Assembly (NCBI GenBank): GCA_027067775.1
Contig: JAMOVK010000060.1
Coordinates: 1-45,165, forward strand
Length of the DNA stretch: 45,165 nucleotides
Direction of reading: 5' to 3'
DNA from: Deltaproteobacteria bacterium
Lineage (GTDB): Bacteria; Desulfobacterota; Dissulfuribacteria; Dissulfuribacterales; QOAL01
The notes under the pieces were generated by a model. The model did not search any database. It saw only the letters and a list, made by a program, of their open reading frames with translations, and was not told the origin of the DNA. Positions 3,312 through 12,975 of this stretch are shown here, in pieces (position 1 is the first letter of the stretch; every line of letters begins with the position of its first letter). Both the position numbers and the translations under genes were made by a program.

Positions 3312-3635
3312 TCATTTAAGAGATTCTGTTTTTGATGTAAAACAAAACGAATTAACAATATTGTTTTTCTTCTCATTAATAACCAATCTGATTTTGCCCT
3401 TACATTTGTTTTTCTGTTGTCTGATTTTGTTTTTTATCAAGGTCGTGACTCTATATATTTTAACACCTTGGTCAGTAGCAATAACTAGATGACCGTCATG
3501 GTTAATTTTTAATAACGATCTTTCTATTGTAACAGTGTTCCCATCTTCATCTCCAGCAGCCAGAAAAGCATTTGATGCAGCTGTAAAAATTAGTAAAAGG
3601 CCAACGGCTGATATGAGAAGTATTAATTTTTTCAT
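3312..3635 (-). CDS. Small secreted protein at the PilY2 position
   Basis: The protein is 107 residues with a clear signal peptide (MKKLILLISAVGLLLIFTAA, then SNAFLA). The mature part holds one compact segment, ERSLLKINHDGHLVIATDQG followed by VKIYRV, and then a Lys- and Asn-rich tail. The ATG has an AGAGGTG ribosome site and lies 25 bases after pilY1, so it belongs to the minor-pilin operon. In Pseudomonas aeruginosa the gene directly after pilY1 is pilY2, also a small exported protein. The position matches, but I see no sequence feature that proves homology. The Lys-rich tail runs into AT-rich DNA and may be poorly conserved. Confidence 0.6.
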   Translation of the reverse strand: MKKLILLISAVGLLLIFTAASNAFLAAGDEDGNTVTIERSLLKINHDGHLVIATDQGVKIYRVTTLIKNKIRQQKNKCKGKIRLVINEKKNNIVNSFCFTSKTESLK

Positions 3636-3660: not shown

Positions 3661-6600
3661 TTATTTTATTACCTCATGCCATTCGATTACTTTGATATTA
3701 AAAGGTTCCTGCTGGATATTTGATGTTCCGTTTTCTCCCAATCCTACAAGTTTGTTACCTACACTCACAAAACCGCCAGCACGTCCTGAACGTATGATTA
3801 TCTTAGGTGGTGAAGGAATAGATTCTCCAACCGACATGTAGCGGTCTGTCAAATCATACGCCGCATTACCGCCAGCATCGTTTAAAAGGTTATAATTATA
3901 AGCTGAGACCCCGGTACAATATTTTAGTGCATAAATTCGGGCTAGACCCTGTGGCCTGCAGGGGTCATCAATAACTGGTGTGAAACCTGTAGCATATACC
4001 ACCTTGCTGAACAGTAGAGGTGTTGACAGGATTTTTTCTCCTTTATGATTACTTCCATCGGATATTTCATTCAATTTTATATACCAACCATAGGTAGAAA
4101 AGAGTTTTTGAAGCATTTCATCTCTTTCTGATGGCATAAGAGTGGAATTTGTATCAAGTTCATCATTTGTAGCATTAAATAAATATGACTCATTGAGTGT
4201 TAGACCTTCTGGTGGATCTAAAAAGGCGTAAAGACGATTATGCACAGATGTGGAATTGGGCTTTTCTCTGTCTCCGGTTCCAACAAAAAGGAAATAGTTA
4301 TAAAAACTCCGATTTGTCTCGTTGGCATCAAGGTCTTGGTGATGATTACCATTAAGATCTTCATAGTATCCACAGTTGCCAACAACTGTAACTGTTGGAG
4401 AATAAAACATTTTTCTTCCCGTGTCGGTTGCATTAACAGAACCTCCAGTATCGCCGCTTGCCGCAGTAAAACCAGGATTTGCCTGGAATATCAGCCGAAT
4501 TTCCCAATTAGCGTCATCTGATGCAGAATCAGAATCAGGTGCATATGATATTTTCCATACCTGTCCTCCAAGATCCCCAAAGAATATGTGGCGCAACTTA
4601 CCATGTCTGTTTTTTATGATTGTGGGGTCAGCCGGTATGGCGTATTTCATTTTATTCAAAATGGAAGTGGTATTACTCGAATAGGTGAAGGATTTGATGA
4701 GTTCTGGAGTAAAATTGGTAACAGAATCAAGGTCAATGATATAAAGTCCACGTCCAAACGAATCATTGCCTGGATTTTCCTTGTCTTCTTCTACCTCATA
4801 TCCTGCTCCAAAAATACCAACAACTTTGGTTTCGCTAGAAGAGGCCCGAAGTCTTGTCAACTGAATTCTTGACCAGGTCTGCCCAAGTTCGGAAAATTCT
4901 GGCTTGGTATTATCGATATACCACTTCAGTTGCCATTGTGCAGGGTCGGGATTACTAATGTCTAGGGCATAGTAACTCCTTCCTCCTCGTCTTAAACCAA
5001 AAATCAAAGTACCTGGTACTATTTTCCCATTATCATCAAAGGTAAAATGTTGTGTAATCTGACCATCTACAAAGAAAAGAGGATTTTTTACACCAGAGCT
5101 TTCAGGCAAATCTTTTAGTTTTGTTAATAGATTACCGGGAATAAAGCTGCATATTTCTGTGCCATCGATGTCAGAAAAAACATGAAGCATCCCATCGTTT
5201 CCGCCAATCACGATTAGATTTTTATTTTCATTTTCATATGTAATTATAGCAGGGGAGGAATGAATGAAGCTGCCAAGAGGCCAGGCTCTGCGTTCAATCG
5301 GCAAATGAAAGCTGGTACCGTCTTCATCATATGTATATCCATAGATGTAGTTGATTAATTTGTATTTTTCAGAATCGTTTGTCAGTCCAAGTTTGCTGTA
5401 TGTAATATTGTCAGGCAGAAATTGAGTAATAGTTCCATTATTTTCTAAAATATATATCTTTCTAAAAGAATATGGATCGCTTAAACTTGCATTTTGTAGG
5501 GCTTCCTTGAGAATGCTGCCGGCTCCCCCTTTTTCTACCTCTCCTCCATCTGATTCGTTACTCCAAAAAGACGAAGATGTGCTATAAAAATTACCTTGAC
5601 AGTCAACAGCGGGATGCCCGTTTCGATCTGTGATTACCCACTCAGCTTCTCTGCGGCCTGGACAATCGGTCCTCACCATCTTTTTCAATTTGTATTTTTT
5701 TAGGTTACCTGCCCAACGTTCGTTTTTGGGTTTGAAAAAGGCCATGTAGAGCCACTCACCACTTTGTGTCTTGTTAGATGTATCGACTGATATCACGGGT
5801 GCCACGTAAGATGAACTTTTTACAATCAAGAGTCCCAGGGCATAGAATGCATTTACAAGTTGCATTTTGTTATAAGCGGCAAGAAAGAGCCCCCCGCCAT
5901 CGGATGCAGCGTCCTGCATTATTGGTGCTGCTAGTACAAACCCCAGCATGTGACTTATTATATTGTCAAAAGAATCTTCTGGATGGGTGATGATAGATCT
6001 GTCTCTGAAACTGTGGCTAAACATGAATCTGGCTACATCATCAAAATAATCCTCTGGTGGATATGTATATTGATAGGGATCTTCTGTCCATCCGTCTCCA
6101 TCCTCATCTGTGAAGGTTTTGCCCAAAATTCTACTCCAGTCGTTATCTGCCGAAGGGTATCCATCGGATATCACAATTACATAATTTTTGGCACATTCGG
6201 GTAAGACGTTTGCCTTTTGTTCAAAATGCTTAAATATATCTTGCAATGCTTCACCTAAAGGCGTTCCACCGTATGGTTCAAATTGGTTTATATAGGTTGT
6301 GATATTTTGTCTCAATTGTTCGTCACTTAAGGAGGGATCAAAAGGCTGCCATATTTTTGCTCCATTGCCAGTGGTTGGTGTACTAAAACTGGCTAAAGCC
6401 CAATTGATTTTACCCTTGGTTTGTTCAATCACGTAAAGTATAGCATCGCGCACCACATCTAGACGCCTTTGCATTTTGTAACCCTGGGTAACCTCTTCAT
6501 TAGTAATATATTGATATCTGTCTATTTTAAATCCTTTTTTTGTTTTGGAACCATCTGAAGTAAACTCCAATATGAGTTTGTCTGCTCCACTCATGTTATA

Positions 6601-7659
6601 GGGTCCGATCCAGAAATCGCTTCCTTTATTTCCGGACAAAGAATCGATTTTGTTGCTGGGTTTAATTTCGTTCTTATATATTTTCAAAAAGTCGTGGTTC
6701 TTTTGTGTGCGGAATGAAACAAAATGAAATCTTACTTGATTGGCATCTGCTGGTTCTATGTCCCAGCTTTGACTATGATTATTGGGATAATTGGCTGGAT
6801 AGTTGGCAGATTCTATATTGTCCACAAATACGGTATGCCATTCTGCATTAGGATAGGTGCGCACCTTCCAGGTTCTGTATGCCTCGTCAGTTGAGTCCTG
6901 TGTGTACAGATTGTAGACCATTTGCATATTGATCCAGTTACCTGGAATAAAGAAGTAAATATATTGGTCTCCATCTTCGACCAAATTATGATCCGATGCA
7001 TTATTACCTATGCCCTCGAATCCGCTAAAATACCAACCTGGAGCGTTCAAAAGTCCTCCGAATCCTTTATCTGTCATGGTACCGTCCGGATTTTTTTGCC
7101 AATTATGTAGTTTTATGCTCCTGTCATAGGGCAGTTCTTCTCCATCCAGCAGAATGGTTCCGTTTGCATCAAGTGTTATTCTTCTATTAGCTTCGTTGCC
7201 ATCACAGGCATAAAGATTTCCTTCCCTGTCTATACAGGTGTTCGTTTCTATGACATCATTGGTATACCAAACATAGTCAGGATCCCCTGCATCTCCCGTA
7301 AAGGTGGTTCCATCGGATAGTACACGGACTCTAATTTTCCCTTTTATAAGAAGTATTTCATTTCTGGGATATTTGCGAGAATCGGGATAGAAATAGTTGC
7401 TGGTTCCGCATCCACCCGCTATCTTATCACAATCTCCTAGGTCGGATGCCCAGTTGTAATAGGCTCCATAATCAATGGTATGCTCGTAGACTCCAAAATC
7501 CATGCTACCAGATGTGTCAAAGAGGATTGCTACGTTGGGTTTTATCGTGTTTTGATAAATATCTGTATCAAGCGCCAATGCCTTTTTTGGAAAAAAAACA
7601 ACCAAAAATAGATATATAAAAAAGCAAAACCATAGCCGTTGTTTACTGTTTTTTTGCAT
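3661..7659 (-). CDS. pilY1: PilY1-like type IV pilus tip protein with inserted CUB domain
   Basis: The protein has 1332 residues. A signal peptide runs from residue 1 to about 29 (ends KKALA). A von Willebrand A fold begins at PNVAILFDTSGSM (MIDAS DTSGS, 48-52) and resumes only near residue 395 with RRLDVVRDAILYV; the MIDAS Thr lies in GGTPLGEAL (464-472) and the Asp in VISDG (496-500). The intervening segment contains a CUB-like domain at about 278-386 (IESANYPANYP, then LILEFTSDGSK). DEDGDGWTED (518-527) looks like a calcium loop. The C-terminal half is the PilY1 beta-propeller (IVIGGNDGMLHVF at 816-828; RRGGRSYYALD at 890-900; FFGDLGGQVWKI at 1026-1037). PilY1 sits at the pilus tip and affects adhesion, surface sensing and retraction. 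The start is fixed by an AGGAGG 9 bases upstream. Confidence 0.93.
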   Translation of the reverse strand: MQKNSKQRLWFCFFIYLFLVVFFPKKALALDTDIYQNTIKPNVAILFDTSGSMDFGVYEHTIDYGAYYNWASDLGDCDKIAGGCGTSNYFYPDSRKYPRNEILLIKGKIRVRVLSDGTTFTGDAGDPDYVWYTNDVIETNTCIDREGNLYACDGNEANRRITLDANGTILLDGEELPYDRSIKLHNWQKNPDGTMTDKGFGGLLNAPGWYFSGFEGIGNNASDHNLVEDGDQYIYFFIPGNWINMQMVYNLYTQDSTDEAYRTWKVRTYPNAEWHTVFVDNIESANYPANYPNNHSQSWDIEPADANQVRFHFVSFRTQKNHDFLKIYKNEIKPSNKIDSLSGNKGSDFWIGPYNMSGADKLILEFTSDGSKTKKGFKIDRYQYITNEEVTQGYKMQRRLDVVRDAILYVIEQTKGKINWALASFSTPTTGNGAKIWQPFDPSLSDEQLRQNITTYINQFEPYGGTPLGEALQDIFKHFEQKANVLPECAKNYVIVISDGYPSADNDWSRILGKTFTDEDGDGWTEDPYQYTYPPEDYFDDVARFMFSHSFRDRSIITHPEDSFDNIISHMLGFVLAAPIMQDAASDGGGLFLAAYNKMQLVNAFYALGLLIVKSSSYVAPVISVDTSNKTQSGEWLYMAFFKPKNERWAGNLKKYKLKKMVRTDCPGRREAEWVITDRNGHPAVDCQGNFYSTSSSFWSNESDGGEVEKGGAGSILKEALQNASLSDPYSFRKIYILENNGTITQFLPDNITYSKLGLTNDSEKYKLINYIYGYTYDEDGTSFHLPIERRAWPLGSFIHSSPAIITYENENKNLIVIGGNDGMLHVFSDIDGTEICSFIPGNLLTKLKDLPESSGVKNPLFFVDGQITQHFTFDDNGKIVPGTLIFGLRRGGRSYYALDISNPDPAQWQLKWYIDNTKPEFSELGQTWSRIQLTRLRASSSETKVVGIFGAGYEVEEDKENPGNDSFGRGLYIIDLDSVTNFTPELIKSFTYSSNTTSILNKMKYAIPADPTIIKNRHGKLRHIFFGDLGGQVWKISYAPDSDSASDDANWEIRLIFQANPGFTAASGDTGGSVNATDTGRKMFYSPTVTVVGNCGYYEDLNGNHHQDLDANETNRSFYNYFLFVGTGDREKPNSTSVHNRLYAFLDPPEGLTLNESYLFNATNDELDTNSTLMPSERDEMLQKLFSTYGWYIKLNEISDGSNHKGEKILSTPLLFSKVVYATGFTPVIDDPCRPQGLARIYALKYCTGVSAYNYNLLNDAGGNAAYDLTDRYMSVGESIPSPPKIIIRSGRAGGFVSVGNKLVGLGENGTSNIQQEPFNIKVIEWHEVIK

Positions 7660-7671
7660 TTGCTGATCCTC

Positions 7672-8136
7672 CTACTTTTCAAGTTGAGGGCCTAGCTTGT
7701 ATACAAGTGTATTTACTGCACTAGTTCCCTTATTTAGGCTCGGCAGAGGATATCTGGTTTCAACTGTGAAAAAATATTTATTAAAAGATTCAGCAGAATA
7801 TCCTGGTATATTATTAGATGTTTCATAATGATGGAAAATGATAATTGATTTGCAGACTGGGTCACTGTTATCCTGTTTGGTAGAATTACCTTCATAGATT
7901 TTGTTTCTTTTTGTAATGTCTGATATGTTTATGTTTTGATCGTCTGATACTCTTACTCTTTCAAATTGATTTGATGATTCTGCTATAAAAAAGTTGCGAA
8001 CTATATCTTTATAGTTTGATGATATGTTAATTTCTGTTTTCGTTACTTGGTAAAGACATATAGCTAGAGCGGCGATTGCAGTCAAAATAAGTAAAGATGC
8101 TATTAAAGCAAATCCGTTATCTTTCATAATATACAT
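7672..8136 (-). CDS. pilX: PilX-like minor pilin
   Basis: The start chosen is the ATG at 8136, right after the TAA of pilV, with GAGAG as ribosome site; a TTG at 8160 would overlap pilV and lengthen the leader. This gives 154 residues. The N-terminal motif DNG/FALIASLLILTAIAALAI lacks Glu5, as is usual for the PilX/GspK class of tip subunits. It is followed by helix VTKTEINISSNYKDIVRNFF and AESSNQFERVRV, close to the PilX pattern in which A-E-x-x-x occurs after the hydrophobic helix. In the family, PilX, PilV, PilW and FimU/T form the priming complex that carries PilY1; gene order here is consistent with this. Confidence 0.82.
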   Translation of the reverse strand: MYIMKDNGFALIASLLILTAIAALAICLYQVTKTEINISSNYKDIVRNFFIAESSNQFERVRVSDDQNINISDITKRNKIYEGNSTKQDNSDPVCKSIIIFHHYETSNNIPGYSAESFNKYFFTVETRYPLPSLNKGTSAVNTLVYKLGPQLEK

Positions 8137-8137
8137 A

Positions 8138-8551
8138 TTATTCTCTCTTTTTTCTTGCAAAGAATGTTAATTGATATGGTTCATTGTCTTCATTCCATGC
8201 AACATCTAGTTGTATTTTTTTATATATAATAGTTGTATTAGATGTTGTGGATGTATTACTATCTGATATTATGTATGTACAATTTGTTGAAAATCCATTT
8301 TCTAAATATGTAGTTGGTCCATGTATACCTGGTGATAAGTCTACGGATTCATATGAAGAATTGATAAGTCTATCTAGTTGTCTTTGAGCTATTATTACAG
8401 CTTGAGTGTATTGTCTAGAAAATGTTGTTCCACGAATACTACTTCCAAAAAGGGATATATAACCAAGTATGCCAATAGCTAAGACAAATAGAGCTAAGAT
8501 TATTTCTATAAGTGAAAAACCTTCTGATTTGAAAATTACTTTAGCGAACAT
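8138..8551 (-). CDS. pilV: PilV-like minor pilin
   Basis: The protein has 137 residues. The prepilin site is SEG/FSLIEIILALFVLAIGILG, which with the following LF and the QAVIIAQRQLDRLI helix is characteristic of PilV/GspI-type minor pilins. The C-terminal half (TIIYKKIQLDVAWNE) fits the PilV beta-sheet strand ending in W. It starts 5 bases after pilW and ends 1 base before the preferred pilX start, so translation is probably coupled. Base composition is strongly AT-rich compared with the housekeeping genes of this window. Confidence 0.85.
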   Translation of the reverse strand: MFAKVIFKSEGFSLIEIILALFVLAIGILGYISLFGSSIRGTTFSRQYTQAVIIAQRQLDRLINSSYESVDLSPGIHGPTTYLENGFSTNCTYIISDSNTSTTSNTTIIYKKIQLDVAWNEDNEPYQLTFFARKKRE

Positions 8552-8556
8552 TTATA

Positions 8557-9522
8557 TTAATCCTTATAGGTCAAATTTCTAGGAATAACAGTTGTTGTGA
8601 GAAGTAAACGATGAAAATGGTCATTATACGGACCAAAGGTCTGGTCAGCCATAATATATGTAGCTTTGTCCGTAAAATCTGGATCTGGATTCTTGGTCTT
8701 GGCTAGAATAAAAATTTTAAAGCCCTTAACTTGCATTATCTCTTGATCTGTTAATGTATTCTGCCATTCGCTACTTTCTATTACGCCATTGTTATTCGTA
8801 TCTAGTGCTATCTGTAATTGAAACGCTTCGATATTATCTGCAATATCGTTATTGGCAGATGATGGAGCAATATTGTGGTCTATTCTTAGATTATTATCCA
8901 CAATATGGATATAATTTGATGTCAAAAGGTAGCATTCGTCATCTATGCTCGCATGATGTCTGCCCGTAAATGTTAACGTGTTTCCCGCTAAGTTTAAAAG
9001 TTTCTGATTTTCTTGATAGGGGTTCGGATAAATGTAGATATTATATTTTTGGTATTTTGTAGCATTTGTACTTAATCTTGAAGTATCATCTAGGATGACC
9101 GTATTTTCGTCAATAACATTTGTAATTTTACCGATATAACGTGATGCATATGTTATGGCGATAGCATCTGATCTGGCATCGGTGGTCGTATTAGAAGAAA
9201 TGCCTGGCTTAAAAAATATCAGTTTCGATGAAAAATCTATCCCGAAAGATGAATCAGGTACTTCTAATTCATAGTATTGAGTCCCTTCTGGATGATTCGT
9301 TTCATAAAGTTTTTTAGAGCCAAAGCCGACCAATCTTAGACTTCGGGTTATAGTATCAACAGCAATTCTTGCATTCATTTGCATCTCTAATATGTCCTGA
9401 TTGACATTGAAAGTTCTGTAATTAGAGCGGTAAGCGATATATAGACCGGTAGCTAATAGTGTGCTCACTACAAAGGCAACCAAGAACTCTACCAGGGTGA
9501 AACCTTTATCTGTTTTTATCAT
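8557..9522 (-). CDS. pilW: PilW-like minor pilin
   Basis: The protein has 321 residues, the normal size for PilW. The N-terminus DKG/FTLVEFLVAFVVSTLLATG is a prepilin site with Glu5. It is followed by QDILEMQMNARIAVDTITRS and LRLVGF, the conserved PilW/GspJ helix with N-A-R and R-L-x-G. The rest is a beta-rich domain with a polar pattern (DTNNNGVIESSEW, near residue 245) that resembles a calcium-binding loop. Its role is the same priming complex as PilV/PilX. It begins 2 bases after the fimT/gspH gene. Confidence 0.87.
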   Translation of the reverse strand: MIKTDKGFTLVEFLVAFVVSTLLATGLYIAYRSNYRTFNVNQDILEMQMNARIAVDTITRSLRLVGFGSKKLYETNHPEGTQYYELEVPDSSFGIDFSSKLIFFKPGISSNTTTDARSDAIAITYASRYIGKITNVIDENTVILDDTSRLSTNATKYQKYNIYIYPNPYQENQKLLNLAGNTLTFTGRHHASIDDECYLLTSNYIHIVDNNLRIDHNIAPSSANNDIADNIEAFQLQIALDTNNNGVIESSEWQNTLTDQEIMQVKGFKIFILAKTKNPDPDFTDKATYIMADQTFGPYNDHFHRLLLTTTVIPRNLTYKD

Positions 9523-9524
9523 AG

Positions 9525-9992
9525 TTACTGTACCTTTATTCTTCCTGATCTATTGGTGATTACAGATCGAGAGATGGTACCTAGACTTATAATAATATGA
9601 CCATTACTACTTGATCCCAGGGGACTAAAAGTTACACATCCGCCACTATAAGAAAATCCCAATCGGACTCGTGTACTATTGTCCGCTTCTTCATCCACTT
9701 CTTTTATGCCTGTTATATAAAGTCCTGATCCTGTTTTGATTTGATAGGAGTGATTACCTGTTTTGCATAAAAGTACTTTTTCGTCTCTTTTTACAGCTTC
9801 AGATCTTGCAGATCTTAAGTCGGCTGCTACTTGAAATGCAGCAGATCTCACTCTATTTTCCGGTGAATTCCATCCACTAAATGCAATAAAAGCACCTATT
9901 GATATTAAAACTAGAATCACAAATAGTTCTATTAGGGAAAAACCATCGTTGTTGTTCATAAAATTTTTTAAAATTTTTAATAAAAATCCCAC
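9525..9992 (-). CDS. GspH/FimT-family minor pilin
   Basis: The protein has 155 residues from a GTG at 9992; an internal ATG at 9959 would give the shorter leader MNNNDG, and neither has a strong ribosome site. The processing site NDG/FSLIELFVILVLISIGAF has Glu5. It is followed by ENRVRSAAFQVAADLRSARSE and AVKRDEKVLL, the diagnostic GspH/FimT/FimU motif (L..AR.EA..R...V.L). The C-terminus GRIKVQ is close to the usual G-R-x-R end. It is the first gene of the minor-pilin operon and corresponds to fimU/fimT of Pseudomonas. Confidence 0.86.
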   Translation of the reverse strand: MGFLLKILKNFMNNNDGFSLIELFVILVLISIGAFIAFSGWNSPENRVRSAAFQVAADLRSARSEAVKRDEKVLLCKTGNHSYQIKTGSGLYITGIKEVDEEADNSTRVRLGFSYSGGCVTFSPLGSSSNGHIIISLGTISRSVITNRSGRIKVQ

Positions 9993-10416: not shown

Positions 10417-10452
10417 TTGGACCTGCCTCGGGGGCTCAAGATTAGGGATCTG

Positions 10453-12975
10453 ATGGAAAACAAGGTCTTACAGGCTCTGCCCACAGTGCCTTTAGCCATC
10501 TTTTTACTGCCATTTGCAGCAGGCATATCTTTCCAAAAGGGTCTGTATGGCCTGGGCTACATGGATATTTTTGCCTTGTGCTGCCTCATTCTAGTCTGCT
10601 TTATTATTTTTTCTCTACCTCTATTTAATCTTCAAGAGGCGAGACGCCACAGGTCAAAGTGGTTTGCGGCTAGGCGTTTTCTTGTCCTGTTAGGTGCTTT
10701 CATGCTCTTTTTTGGGGCTGGCATCATCCATTTTGCTAATACGTATGAGTTCCTTGCAGGTAGCCAGGCAGGACTCCTGGAGCTGGCTGAACAGGGTGGC
10801 AGGGTGAAATTGATAGGATATGTAAAAAGCGTAGCGCTGCCACGAGGTAATTCAGATGCCAGGGCCATGGTATTTGTAAAATATGTTGACATCCATGGCA
10901 CTGATTCTGCTATTTCCCAATCAGTAGTTGTTACATTTAAGAATCTTTCATGGGACCAGTTGAGACCGGGCCAAAGGCTTGTTTTTAAAGCAAGGCTTTA
11001 CAGGATACGCAACTTTGGCACTCCTGGAAGTTTCGATTACGAAAACTGGTGGGCACTAAGAGGGATATCGGTAAGAGCCGTATGTTCATCTCCCCTTGAC
11101 GTCTTGTTCCTGCAAGATTCATCGGTTCAGCCAGGGTTAGTTGCCACAGTTTTTTTAGCAGTCGAACAGCTAAGGATGAAAATCATCAAAAATTTGCTCG
11201 GATCTTTGCCACCCCGGGCATCATCTGTTGCAATTGCCCTGCTTACTGGTTCCAGGGCCTGGTTTTCACAAGACCAAAAAATGCTCTATTCTTCTGCAGG
11301 CATTGGTCATCTCTTTGCAGTTTCCGGCCTTCATATGGCAATGATGGCTGGTCTGTCCGTTTTCCTGGTGGGGTTTGTAGGACGTAGCATCCCTTGGTTA
11401 CTCTTAAGGGTAAATATGATAAAGATCTCATGGATCATGGCTGTTTTTTCGTGTTTGTTCTACTGCGCCTTGGCAGGAGGTTCTCCTTCAAGTCTCAGGG
11501 CATTCATCATGATTGCATCTTTGGCCTTCTGCTTCATCTCTGGCAGGAAGTCATGTCTTGAGGCAGGACTTTTTCTTGCAGCATGGCTGCTTCTTTTAAA
11601 AACTCCCTTTTATCTTTTTGATGTTTCCTTTCAGCTGTCATTCACAGTGGTCTTTTTCCTTATTTTTTGGGGCAGGTATTTCAGTCAAACCGTACCCTTT
11701 GCCAAAGGACCTGTATGGACCTTTGCCTTGGTGTGCCTTTTGGCTTTTGCCGCATCCTCACCTCTCGTGGTTTTCTATTTTCACAGGCTCAATCCATTTG
11801 CTATCTTTTTGAACCTGCTGTGTATCCCAATTGCCCAATTCCTGGTTCTTCCCAATCTGTTTTTGGCCTCCTTTTTTTCACTGGTGGCACCCAGCCTGGG
11901 CAGCGCATGCTTTACCTTGGTGTCCCTTGGCATTTCAGCGATGAACAGGCTTGCTGTCTTTTTCACAGACCCATTGTGGATGAATCATTTTGTTTTACCT
12001 CCAAGGCCCTGGGAGTTGTTTATCATGATCCTTTTGTTTTTTCTTGCTCCTTTGGCTTGGAGATCAGGAAAGTTGGGATGTGCCTTTGTCTTTTTTGCGG
12101 TCTTGCTGGTCTGTGGACATCTTTTCCAGGACCATCTAAAGAATCACAGAAAAGGGATTACGCTGCATGTTTTGGATGTGGGCCAGGGGCTTTGTCAGGT
12201 GCTGGAGCTTCCAAAGGGCCAGGTTCTTGTGGCAGATACAGGCGGTTTCAAAGGGTCCCGCTTTGATGTTGGAGATCGTGTAGTCGCCCCATATCTCAGA
12301 AGGCTCGGTATCCGATATATAGACATCCTTGCCATCTCCCATCCAGATACGGATCATATAGGAGGAGCCTTGTCTCTGGTGAGGCAGTTTAAGATTGGCC
12401 AGGTATGGGTGAACAATGTTGGAGGTGGTTCAGGCACTCAACTGTTTAATGAATTTTTGGCTCTAGTCCATCGCAGGAATATACCAGTAAGAGCATTTGA
12501 AAAGACAAGCAGCGTCAGGTTGCAGGGGAGGGTTGTTGTTGAGTGTTTCGTCGCCAAAAAGAAACAGTATTTGTCAAAAAACGACATGGGGCTTGTCTTT
12601 AGGGTGATACATCCAGGTGGCAACATGCTTTTGCCAGGAGACATACAAAAGAGAAGGGAAATGGCACTCCTGATGGCTGGTGCAGAACTTAGATCCCAGG
12701 TAATTGTGGTTCCACATCACGGGGCCAAGGGTTCAAGCAGTTACAGTTTCTTGCAGAGCGTCTGTCCCAATGTTGCAGTTGTCAGTTGCGGTTATAAAAA
12801 TCCATTTCACCATCCTGCTCCGGCAGTTCTCCAGCGCTATAGGAGCCTTGGTGTAAAGGTCTTGAGAACAGATGTGGATGGGACAATAGACATAAAAATA
12901 GCCGGAAACCATAAAATTAAAGTTTCCGGCTATTATCGAAAGGGTGATTTGCTTTTTAATCCAGAAAGTATTTGA
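10453..12975 (+). CDS. comEC: ComEC/Rec2 DNA internalisation channel
   Basis: The start chosen is the ATG at 10453 with AGGGA upstream (840 residues); a TTG at 10417 would add 12 residues. Order of parts: N-terminal membrane helices and a DUF4131-like OB region (about residues 20-210), the Competence domain with many membrane helices (about 235-540, with LLTGSRAWFSQDQ and FAVSGLHMAMMAG), and a C-terminal metallo-beta-lactamase fold (from LHVLDVGQG, HPDTDH near 630-635, LPGDIQ, VVPHHGAKGSSS). Family role: it carries single-stranded DNA across the inner membrane during transformation, after pilus-driven uptake. All three parts are present, so the gene looks intact. The stop overlaps the end of the convergent sigma gene by 20 bases. 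Confidence 0.93.
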   Translation: MENKVLQALPTVPLAIFLLPFAAGISFQKGLYGLGYMDIFALCCLILVCFIIFSLPLFNLQEARRHRSKWFAARRFLVLLGAFMLFFGAGIIHFANTYEFLAGSQAGLLELAEQGGRVKLIGYVKSVALPRGNSDARAMVFVKYVDIHGTDSAISQSVVVTFKNLSWDQLRPGQRLVFKARLYRIRNFGTPGSFDYENWWALRGISVRAVCSSPLDVLFLQDSSVQPGLVATVFLAVEQLRMKIIKNLLGSLPPRASSVAIALLTGSRAWFSQDQKMLYSSAGIGHLFAVSGLHMAMMAGLSVFLVGFVGRSIPWLLLRVNMIKISWIMAVFSCLFYCALAGGSPSSLRAFIMIASLAFCFISGRKSCLEAGLFLAAWLLLLKTPFYLFDVSFQLSFTVVFFLIFWGRYFSQTVPFAKGPVWTFALVCLLAFAASSPLVVFYFHRLNPFAIFLNLLCIPIAQFLVLPNLFLASFFSLVAPSLGSACFTLVSLGISAMNRLAVFFTDPLWMNHFVLPPRPWELFIMILLFFLAPLAWRSGKLGCAFVFFAVLLVCGHLFQDHLKNHRKGITLHVLDVGQGLCQVLELPKGQVLVADTGGFKGSRFDVGDRVVAPYLRRLGIRYIDILAISHPDTDHIGGALSLVRQFKIGQVWVNNVGGGSGTQLFNEFLALVHRRNIPVRAFEKTSSVRLQGRVVVECFVAKKKQYLSKNDMGLVFRVIHPGGNMLLPGDIQKRREMALLMAGAELRSQVIVVPHHGAKGSSSYSFLQSVCPNVAVVSCGYKNPFHHPAPAVLQRYRSLGVKVLRTDVDGTIDIKIAGNHKIKVSGYYRKGDLLFNPESI
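12893..12934 (-). terminator. Rho-independent terminator of the sigma gene, inside comEC
   Basis: ATAGCCGGAAAC (12898-12909) and GTTTCCGGCTAT (12922-12933) form a perfect 12-base inverted repeat (13 pairs with the flanking A-T) around a 12-base AT-rich loop. On the - strand the stem is followed by TTTTAT. It starts about 20 bases past the sigma-gene stop codon. The same bases encode the last 30 or so residues of ComEC on the + strand, where no T-run follows the stem. Confidence 0.78.

Follow-up and report, generated by a model that had tools for sequence, protein, structure and literature searches.

PilY1 is considered to form the end of type IVa pili that makes contact with surfaces. A published model puts it on top of a FimU-PilW-PilV-PilX stack, its N-terminal domain farthest out, and the same paper lists the strong variation among PilY1 N-terminal domains as a question still to be answered (PMC13190605). 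When the inserted finger of ComC is deleted in Acinetobacter, adhesion, twitching and DNA uptake are affected just as they are by loss of the VWA domain or of ComC itself, and for this genus the exchange of tip cassettes at one chromosomal site has been described (PMC10374093). PilY1 of the Seep-SRB2 group, partners of ANME, has been reported to be conserved and expressed (PMC10553843). Among the papers searched, none speaks of PilY1 in connection with a CUB domain.

The window analysed here, which is the whole stretch of 45,165 nucleotides from contig JAMOVK010000060.1 (assembly GCA_027067775.1), comes from a deltaproteobacterium of the order Dissulfuribacterales, an organism that carries dsrA and is therefore probably sulfate-reducing. 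An earlier note, made from the sequence alone, had proposed that the von Willebrand A (VWA) domain of a PilY1-like protein encoded in the window is interrupted, between its MIDAS strand and its first helix, by an insert with a CUB pattern at residues 278-386. It named a Pfam profile search and a structure prediction as checks, and counted against itself the case in which the segment is an ordinary VWA loop of all PilY1 proteins.

The PilY1-like protein and its CUB segment

The gene and the parts of its product are the following.

3661..7659, minus strand: pilY1-like gene, 1332 aa (ORF; signal sequence, split VWA with CUB insert, C-terminal PilY1 beta-propeller)
7501..7539, minus strand: VWA strand beta1 with the MIDAS motif DTSGS, PNVAILFDTSGSM, residues 41-53 (sequence; conserved in the alignment)
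6943..7482, minus strand: pre-CUB part of the VWA insert, enlarged, residues 60-239 (alignment, in which it is kept across CUB-type PilY1 proteins; poor model)
6904..6942, minus strand: GNWINMQMVYNLY motif, residues 240-252 (alignments; counterpart of GNFLNW in other PilY1 proteins; the CUB domain comes after it)
6502..6837, minus strand: predicted CUB domain, residues 275-386 (Pfam CUB E=3.3e-13; AF2 pLDDT 87.6; VIA-align Z 10.9)
6385..6474, minus strand: VWA helix alpha1 and the following strand, MQRRLDVVRDAILYVIEQTKGKINWALASF, residues 396-425 (Pfam VWA 397-504; position)
6154..6270, minus strand: last MIDAS residues, T466 (GGTP) and D499 (SDGYP) (sequence and alignment)
3664..5802, minus strand: PilY1 C-terminal beta-propeller region, residues 620-1332 (Pfam T4P_PilY1 815-1075)

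A Pfam scan of the whole protein returned T4P_PilY1 (PF05567) at residues 815-1075 (E=1.1e-12, 48 bits, cut-off 28.1), VWA (PF00092) at 397-504 (E=3.8e-5, 24.4 bits, just above the cut-off of 23.8) and CUB (PF00431) at 281-379 (E=6.6e-12; 46-50 bits across whole protein and segment), and it gave no domain match in the pre-CUB stretch of about 190 residues (60-239). The MIDAS set of the VWA domain is complete (D48, S50, S52, T466 and D499, from sequence and alignment). Acidic EF-hand-like loops were seen in the VWA domain (FTDEDGDGWTEDP, window 6076-6114) and in the propeller region (EDLNGNHHQDLDANE, window 4318-4362), and an ORF of 107 aa without a family match lies downstream of the gene (window 3312-3635).

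When the CUB segment was searched alone, it matched the Pfam CUB model with E=3.3e-13 and 50.4 bits (curated cut-off 21.4), and a phmmer search of the PDB found cubilin (1.3e-12), together with C1s, neuropilin-2 and the MASPs; a profile search with four relatives led again to cubilin (2.3e-11), and the VWA part matched TRAP, weakly. The AF2 model of the segment (residues 269-390; pLDDT 87.6, pTM 0.83) contains nine strands, and the top Foldseek matches were the CUB domains of C1s, MAp19, MASP, enteropeptidase, Kremen and neuropilin. VIA-align superposed 106 residues of the model on CUB1 of C1s (1nzi_B) at 2.5 Å with a Z of 10.9, and nearly all of its best 50 rows were CUB-bearing proteins. A model of residues 31-626, built from only four sequences, had a pLDDT of 41 and the VWA domain was not folded in it; its most confident part was the CUB segment (271-390, ten-residue means 49 to 88), which Foldseek also matched to CUB structures.

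A chance match to CUB was rejected on the E-value and the predicted fold, and residues 275-386 are, by sequence and predicted fold, a complete CUB domain. The pattern read by the earlier note was therefore borne out by both checks that it had named, since the profile search was clearly positive for the segment and the predicted fold is a CUB-type beta-sandwich. The motifs that it quoted (PNVAILFDTSGSM at 41-53, IESANYPANYP at 282-292, FLKIYKN and LILEFTSDGSK) all lie where it had put them, and helix alpha1, placed from about residue 395, was found from residue 396. As for the limits of the domain, the end at residue 386 stood, and the start had been set about three residues late, the predicted beta-sandwich beginning at about 275.

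Along the protein, the MIDAS strand is followed by residues 60-239, by GNWINMQMVYNLY with its GNWINM, by the CUB segment at 275-386 and by helix alpha1 (MQRRLDVVRDAI) from residue 396. In other PilY1 proteins the GN motif, whose equivalence between proteins was judged by eye, leads directly into the helix, as in L011 (GNRLNY, GNRLNYDFSDQSMRLSVAKAAV) and L065 (GNFLNW, GNFLNWLTMSRMDVLRKVL), so that the CUB domain splits a stretch of PilY1 that is unbroken elsewhere. Two other PilY1 proteins, L010 (1056 aa) and L011 (1036 aa), lack both the CUB domain and the enlarged pre-CUB part; the segment is therefore not a standard VWA loop. That it could be an ordinary beta-rich loop of PilY1 VWA domains merely resembling CUB, the case that the earlier note had counted against itself, would agree with the divergent L004 and L008, which give no CUB match on their own, but it is extremely improbable, being refuted by the Pfam match (E=3.3e-13), by the CUB structures that head the fold search and by the absence of the segment from the insert-less L010 and L011.

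Animal CUB domains are typically disulfide-bonded through four conserved cysteines, a feature that is not universal in PF00431. The CUB domain of the window's PilY1 contains no cysteine, and because the protein has none between residues 152 and 489, the disulfide-bonded arrangement typical of animals is absent from it. In the cbCUB subset the calcium ligands are Tyr17, Glu45, Asp53 and Asp98 (C1s numbering), and Y287, D323 and D369 of PilY1 presumably correspond to calcium ligands of C1s. Q319 aligns with Glu45 of C1s in the phmmer alignment, and the candidate calcium site is not fully canonical; the relatives L036 and L007 have Glu at the equivalent position in the alignment. Judged by its residues, calcium binding by this CUB domain is possible.

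CUB-type PilY1 proteins and their chromosomal slot

Of the 20 homologous segments that were gathered, Pfam CUB recognises 15 at E<=0.1, some of them with scores below the curated cut-off; the other five escape the model, so that part of the CUB-type clade has drifted. All 20 segments keep Asp323, the Asp of DFLKIY. When the C-terminal region alone, without the insert, was used for a tree, the seven CUB and CUB-like PilY1 proteins included formed one clade (100/99), with the insert-less L010 and L011 nearest to it. This single clade fits one insertion event, and a PilY1 subfamily apparently acquired the CUB domain a single time, in its ancestor.

At the Pfam level a CUB domain in PilY1 is rare: of the phylum's 395 genomes scanned, 4 gave CUB matches, five in all and every one in a PilY1 ORF. 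A profile of the CUB domain plus its flanks matched in 7 of 395 genomes of the phylum, 7 of 193 of one class and 3 of 46 of the window's order. Five genomes of that class match Pfam CUB, three of them in PilY1 and two in S8 proteases that end in a CUB domain; a confinement of CUB to PilY1 in the phylum was rejected on this class scan. The two S8 subtilases with C-terminal CUB are encoded at L095 76-1878 (E 7e-21) and L096 1477-3255 (6e-18), and such bacterial proteases may be a source from which CUB sequence could be drawn in the class that they share with several CUB-type PilY1 proteins.

Upstream of pilY1, the window contains the following genes.

7672..8160, minus strand: PilX-like minor pilin (PilX_N E=4.7e-5, just under the cut-off)
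8138..8551, minus strand: PilV-like minor pilin (TIGR02523 E=7e-11, below the cut-off; N_methyl)
8557..9522, minus strand: PilW minor pilin (PF16074 E=8e-11)
9525..9992, minus strand: FimU/GspH-like minor pilin (PF12019 E=2.3e-11)
10417..12975, plus strand: ComEC-like gene, marker of the operon slot (named from reading the sequence; 39-55% identical to the copies of genus mates)

The operon has the order FimU/GspH-PilW-PilV-PilX-PilY1, with the minor pilins directly upstream of pilY1, and an identical FimU-to-PilY1 order was found in L003, L067 and L070 as far as the matches reach. Its neighbours are comEC, a sigma-70 gene and brkB. The genus mates G006 (L065) and G007 (L066) have a pilY1 operon of another type beside comEC and sigma-70; the sigma-70 gene of the window is 88-91% identical to those of genus mates, and ComEC is also closest to theirs (46-55% identity in the nearest four). 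PilY1 is closest to that of G053, a genome of another family (54% identity), and so is PilW (35% identity); the PilY1 proteins of genus mates give a partial alignment to the window's, about 22-33% over most of the length. In the C-terminal tree, the window's protein falls together with L003, G053 and G090 (100/100), which belong to other families, and away from L008, the divergent form of its own order.

Because the slot is shared with genus mates and the operon resembles those of other families, an in-place replacement of the cassette is suggested as the simplest reading, by which the species of the window would have exchanged its tip cassette while the site in the chromosome stayed the same. 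Vertical inheritance of the CUB-type operon, followed by its loss or replacement in genus mates and with no horizontal gain, is favoured by the divergent CUB-like PilY1 proteins of G033 and G045, two genomes of the order that belong to different families from the window's, but we consider it rather unlikely, given the grouping of the window's PilY1 away from L008, the occupation of the slot by another PilY1 type in genus mates, and the lack of a CUB-type PilY1 elsewhere in the window's genus and family among the genomes searched, 18 other family genomes included.

The PilY1 that occupies the same slot in G006 (1765 aa, L065 3682-8976) shows no clear MIDAS in its N-terminus and contains, by eye, a PA14-like stretch; Pfam gave no match in its insert stretch, and a chance-level match only in the L066 counterpart. 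In the window, a pilin with a match to the ComP DUS receptor (E=2.9e-10) is encoded at 2111-2554, near the ComEC-like gene (10417-12975), which suggests a competence-related pilus locus.

Other inserted modules and the proposed role of the CUB domain

Other modules lie within the VWA domains of PilY1 proteins from the family and order of the window. Golvesin_C was found in L082 (6e-50) and L086 (3e-45), with two copies each, and in L087 (3e-27), and the PilY1 of L080 has a match just under the cut-off (3.9e-7); by eye, the two copies of L082 and L086 lie in two different VWA loops. A PPC-like beta-domain (DHDVFKIVL...AGTYYIDV) was seen in the VWA domains of several others (L074-L079 and L066), of which only L077 reaches Pfam PPC, with a weak match (0.0096). 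In the Golvesin- and PPC-type proteins the first module stands, by eye, before the GN-like motif QNFANWFSYYRRR, whereas the CUB domain stands after it; the modules thus do not enter the VWA at exactly the same point. Since the pre-CUB stretch is also enlarged and the VWA domains of sister species hold other modules, CUB is one of several options. It may be, although we advance this tentatively and hold it to be somewhat less probable than not, that bacteria in general insert exchangeable adhesion modules (CUB, Golvesin-C, PPC-like domains and fingers) at one place in PilY1, a docking site between the MIDAS strand and helix alpha1, with tip cassettes replaced in place between species and ligand binding coupled directly to the MIDAS as a mechanosensor. 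If so, pilus specificity, for instance towards a syntrophic partner, would evolve by exchange of modules and cassettes.

The reading that we prefer, with a probability of about 0.75 for the proposal as a whole, is that PilY1 is a type IVa pilus tip adhesin, predicted to stand atop FimU-PilW-PilV-PilX, whose CUB domain, placed between the MIDAS strand and helix alpha1, would go back to one insertion in the ancestor of its PilY1 subfamily. This domain would project from the VWA as an additional ligand-binding surface, with a protein or glycan of a surface, a matrix or a partner cell as candidate ligand, and the VWA and the propeller would retain their usual roles in pilus priming and force sensing. 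The whole minor-pilin/pilY1 operon may move as a cassette between lineages, by which a species could alter what its pili adhere to.

By analogy, the CUB domain is most likely a ligand-binding module at the predicted pilus tip. A passive spacer or stabiliser, which would extend or stiffen the VWA tip or lock the MIDAS for force sensing, is in our opinion unlikely: few residues are invariant across the clade, one Asp among them, and some members are strongly drifted, which a spacer would allow, but the VWA domains of sister species hold other beta-sandwich modules (Golvesin_C and PPC-like), as expected for changing specificity, and adhesion by Acinetobacter requires the finger inserted in the VWA of ComC (PMC10374093). 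Presumably a ligand-binding module, the CUB domain of PilY1 has solved relatives, a defined insertion point, and both insert-less relatives and relatives with other modules for comparison, making CUB-type PilY1 a testable system for changes of tip specificity and for the coupling of insert binding to VWA force sensing.

Comparison with known systems

The PilY1 of the window shares with the PilY1/PilC/ComC tip adhesins a signal sequence, an N-terminal VWA domain with MIDAS, a C-terminal beta-propeller and adjoining FimU-PilW-PilV-PilX genes, and differs from them in that its VWA domain is interrupted by the CUB domain and an enlarged pre-CUB stretch. CUB is a binding module familiar above all from animals, and the animal domains (C1s, MASP, neuropilin, cubilin and Kremen) agree with that of PilY1 in fold and sequence pattern (Z of about 10-11, identity of 17-26%), whereas the CUB domain of PilY1 lacks cysteines, has Gln for Glu45 of C1s and is embedded in another domain. 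The S8 proteases L095 and L096 also carry a bacterial CUB domain, and several CUB-type PilY1 proteins come from their class, although the CUB domain of the proteases lies at the C-terminus of a subtilase and is not inserted in a VWA domain.

Myxococcus PilY1.1 and PilY1.2 likewise combine a common C-terminal propeller with differing N-terminal modules, with horizontal spread suggested for some classes, but their DUF4114 replaces the VWA as the N-terminal domain; a term search of the text of that paper found no mention of an insertion (PMC13190605). ComC of Acinetobacter baumannii has, like the window's protein, a lineage-specific insertion into the VWA domain of a PilY1, which in ComC is a Tyr-rich protruding finger and not a CUB domain (PMC10374093). 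The CUB domain in the VWA of PilY1 is thus a fresh variant of a known practice, the customising of PilY1 with inserted modules.
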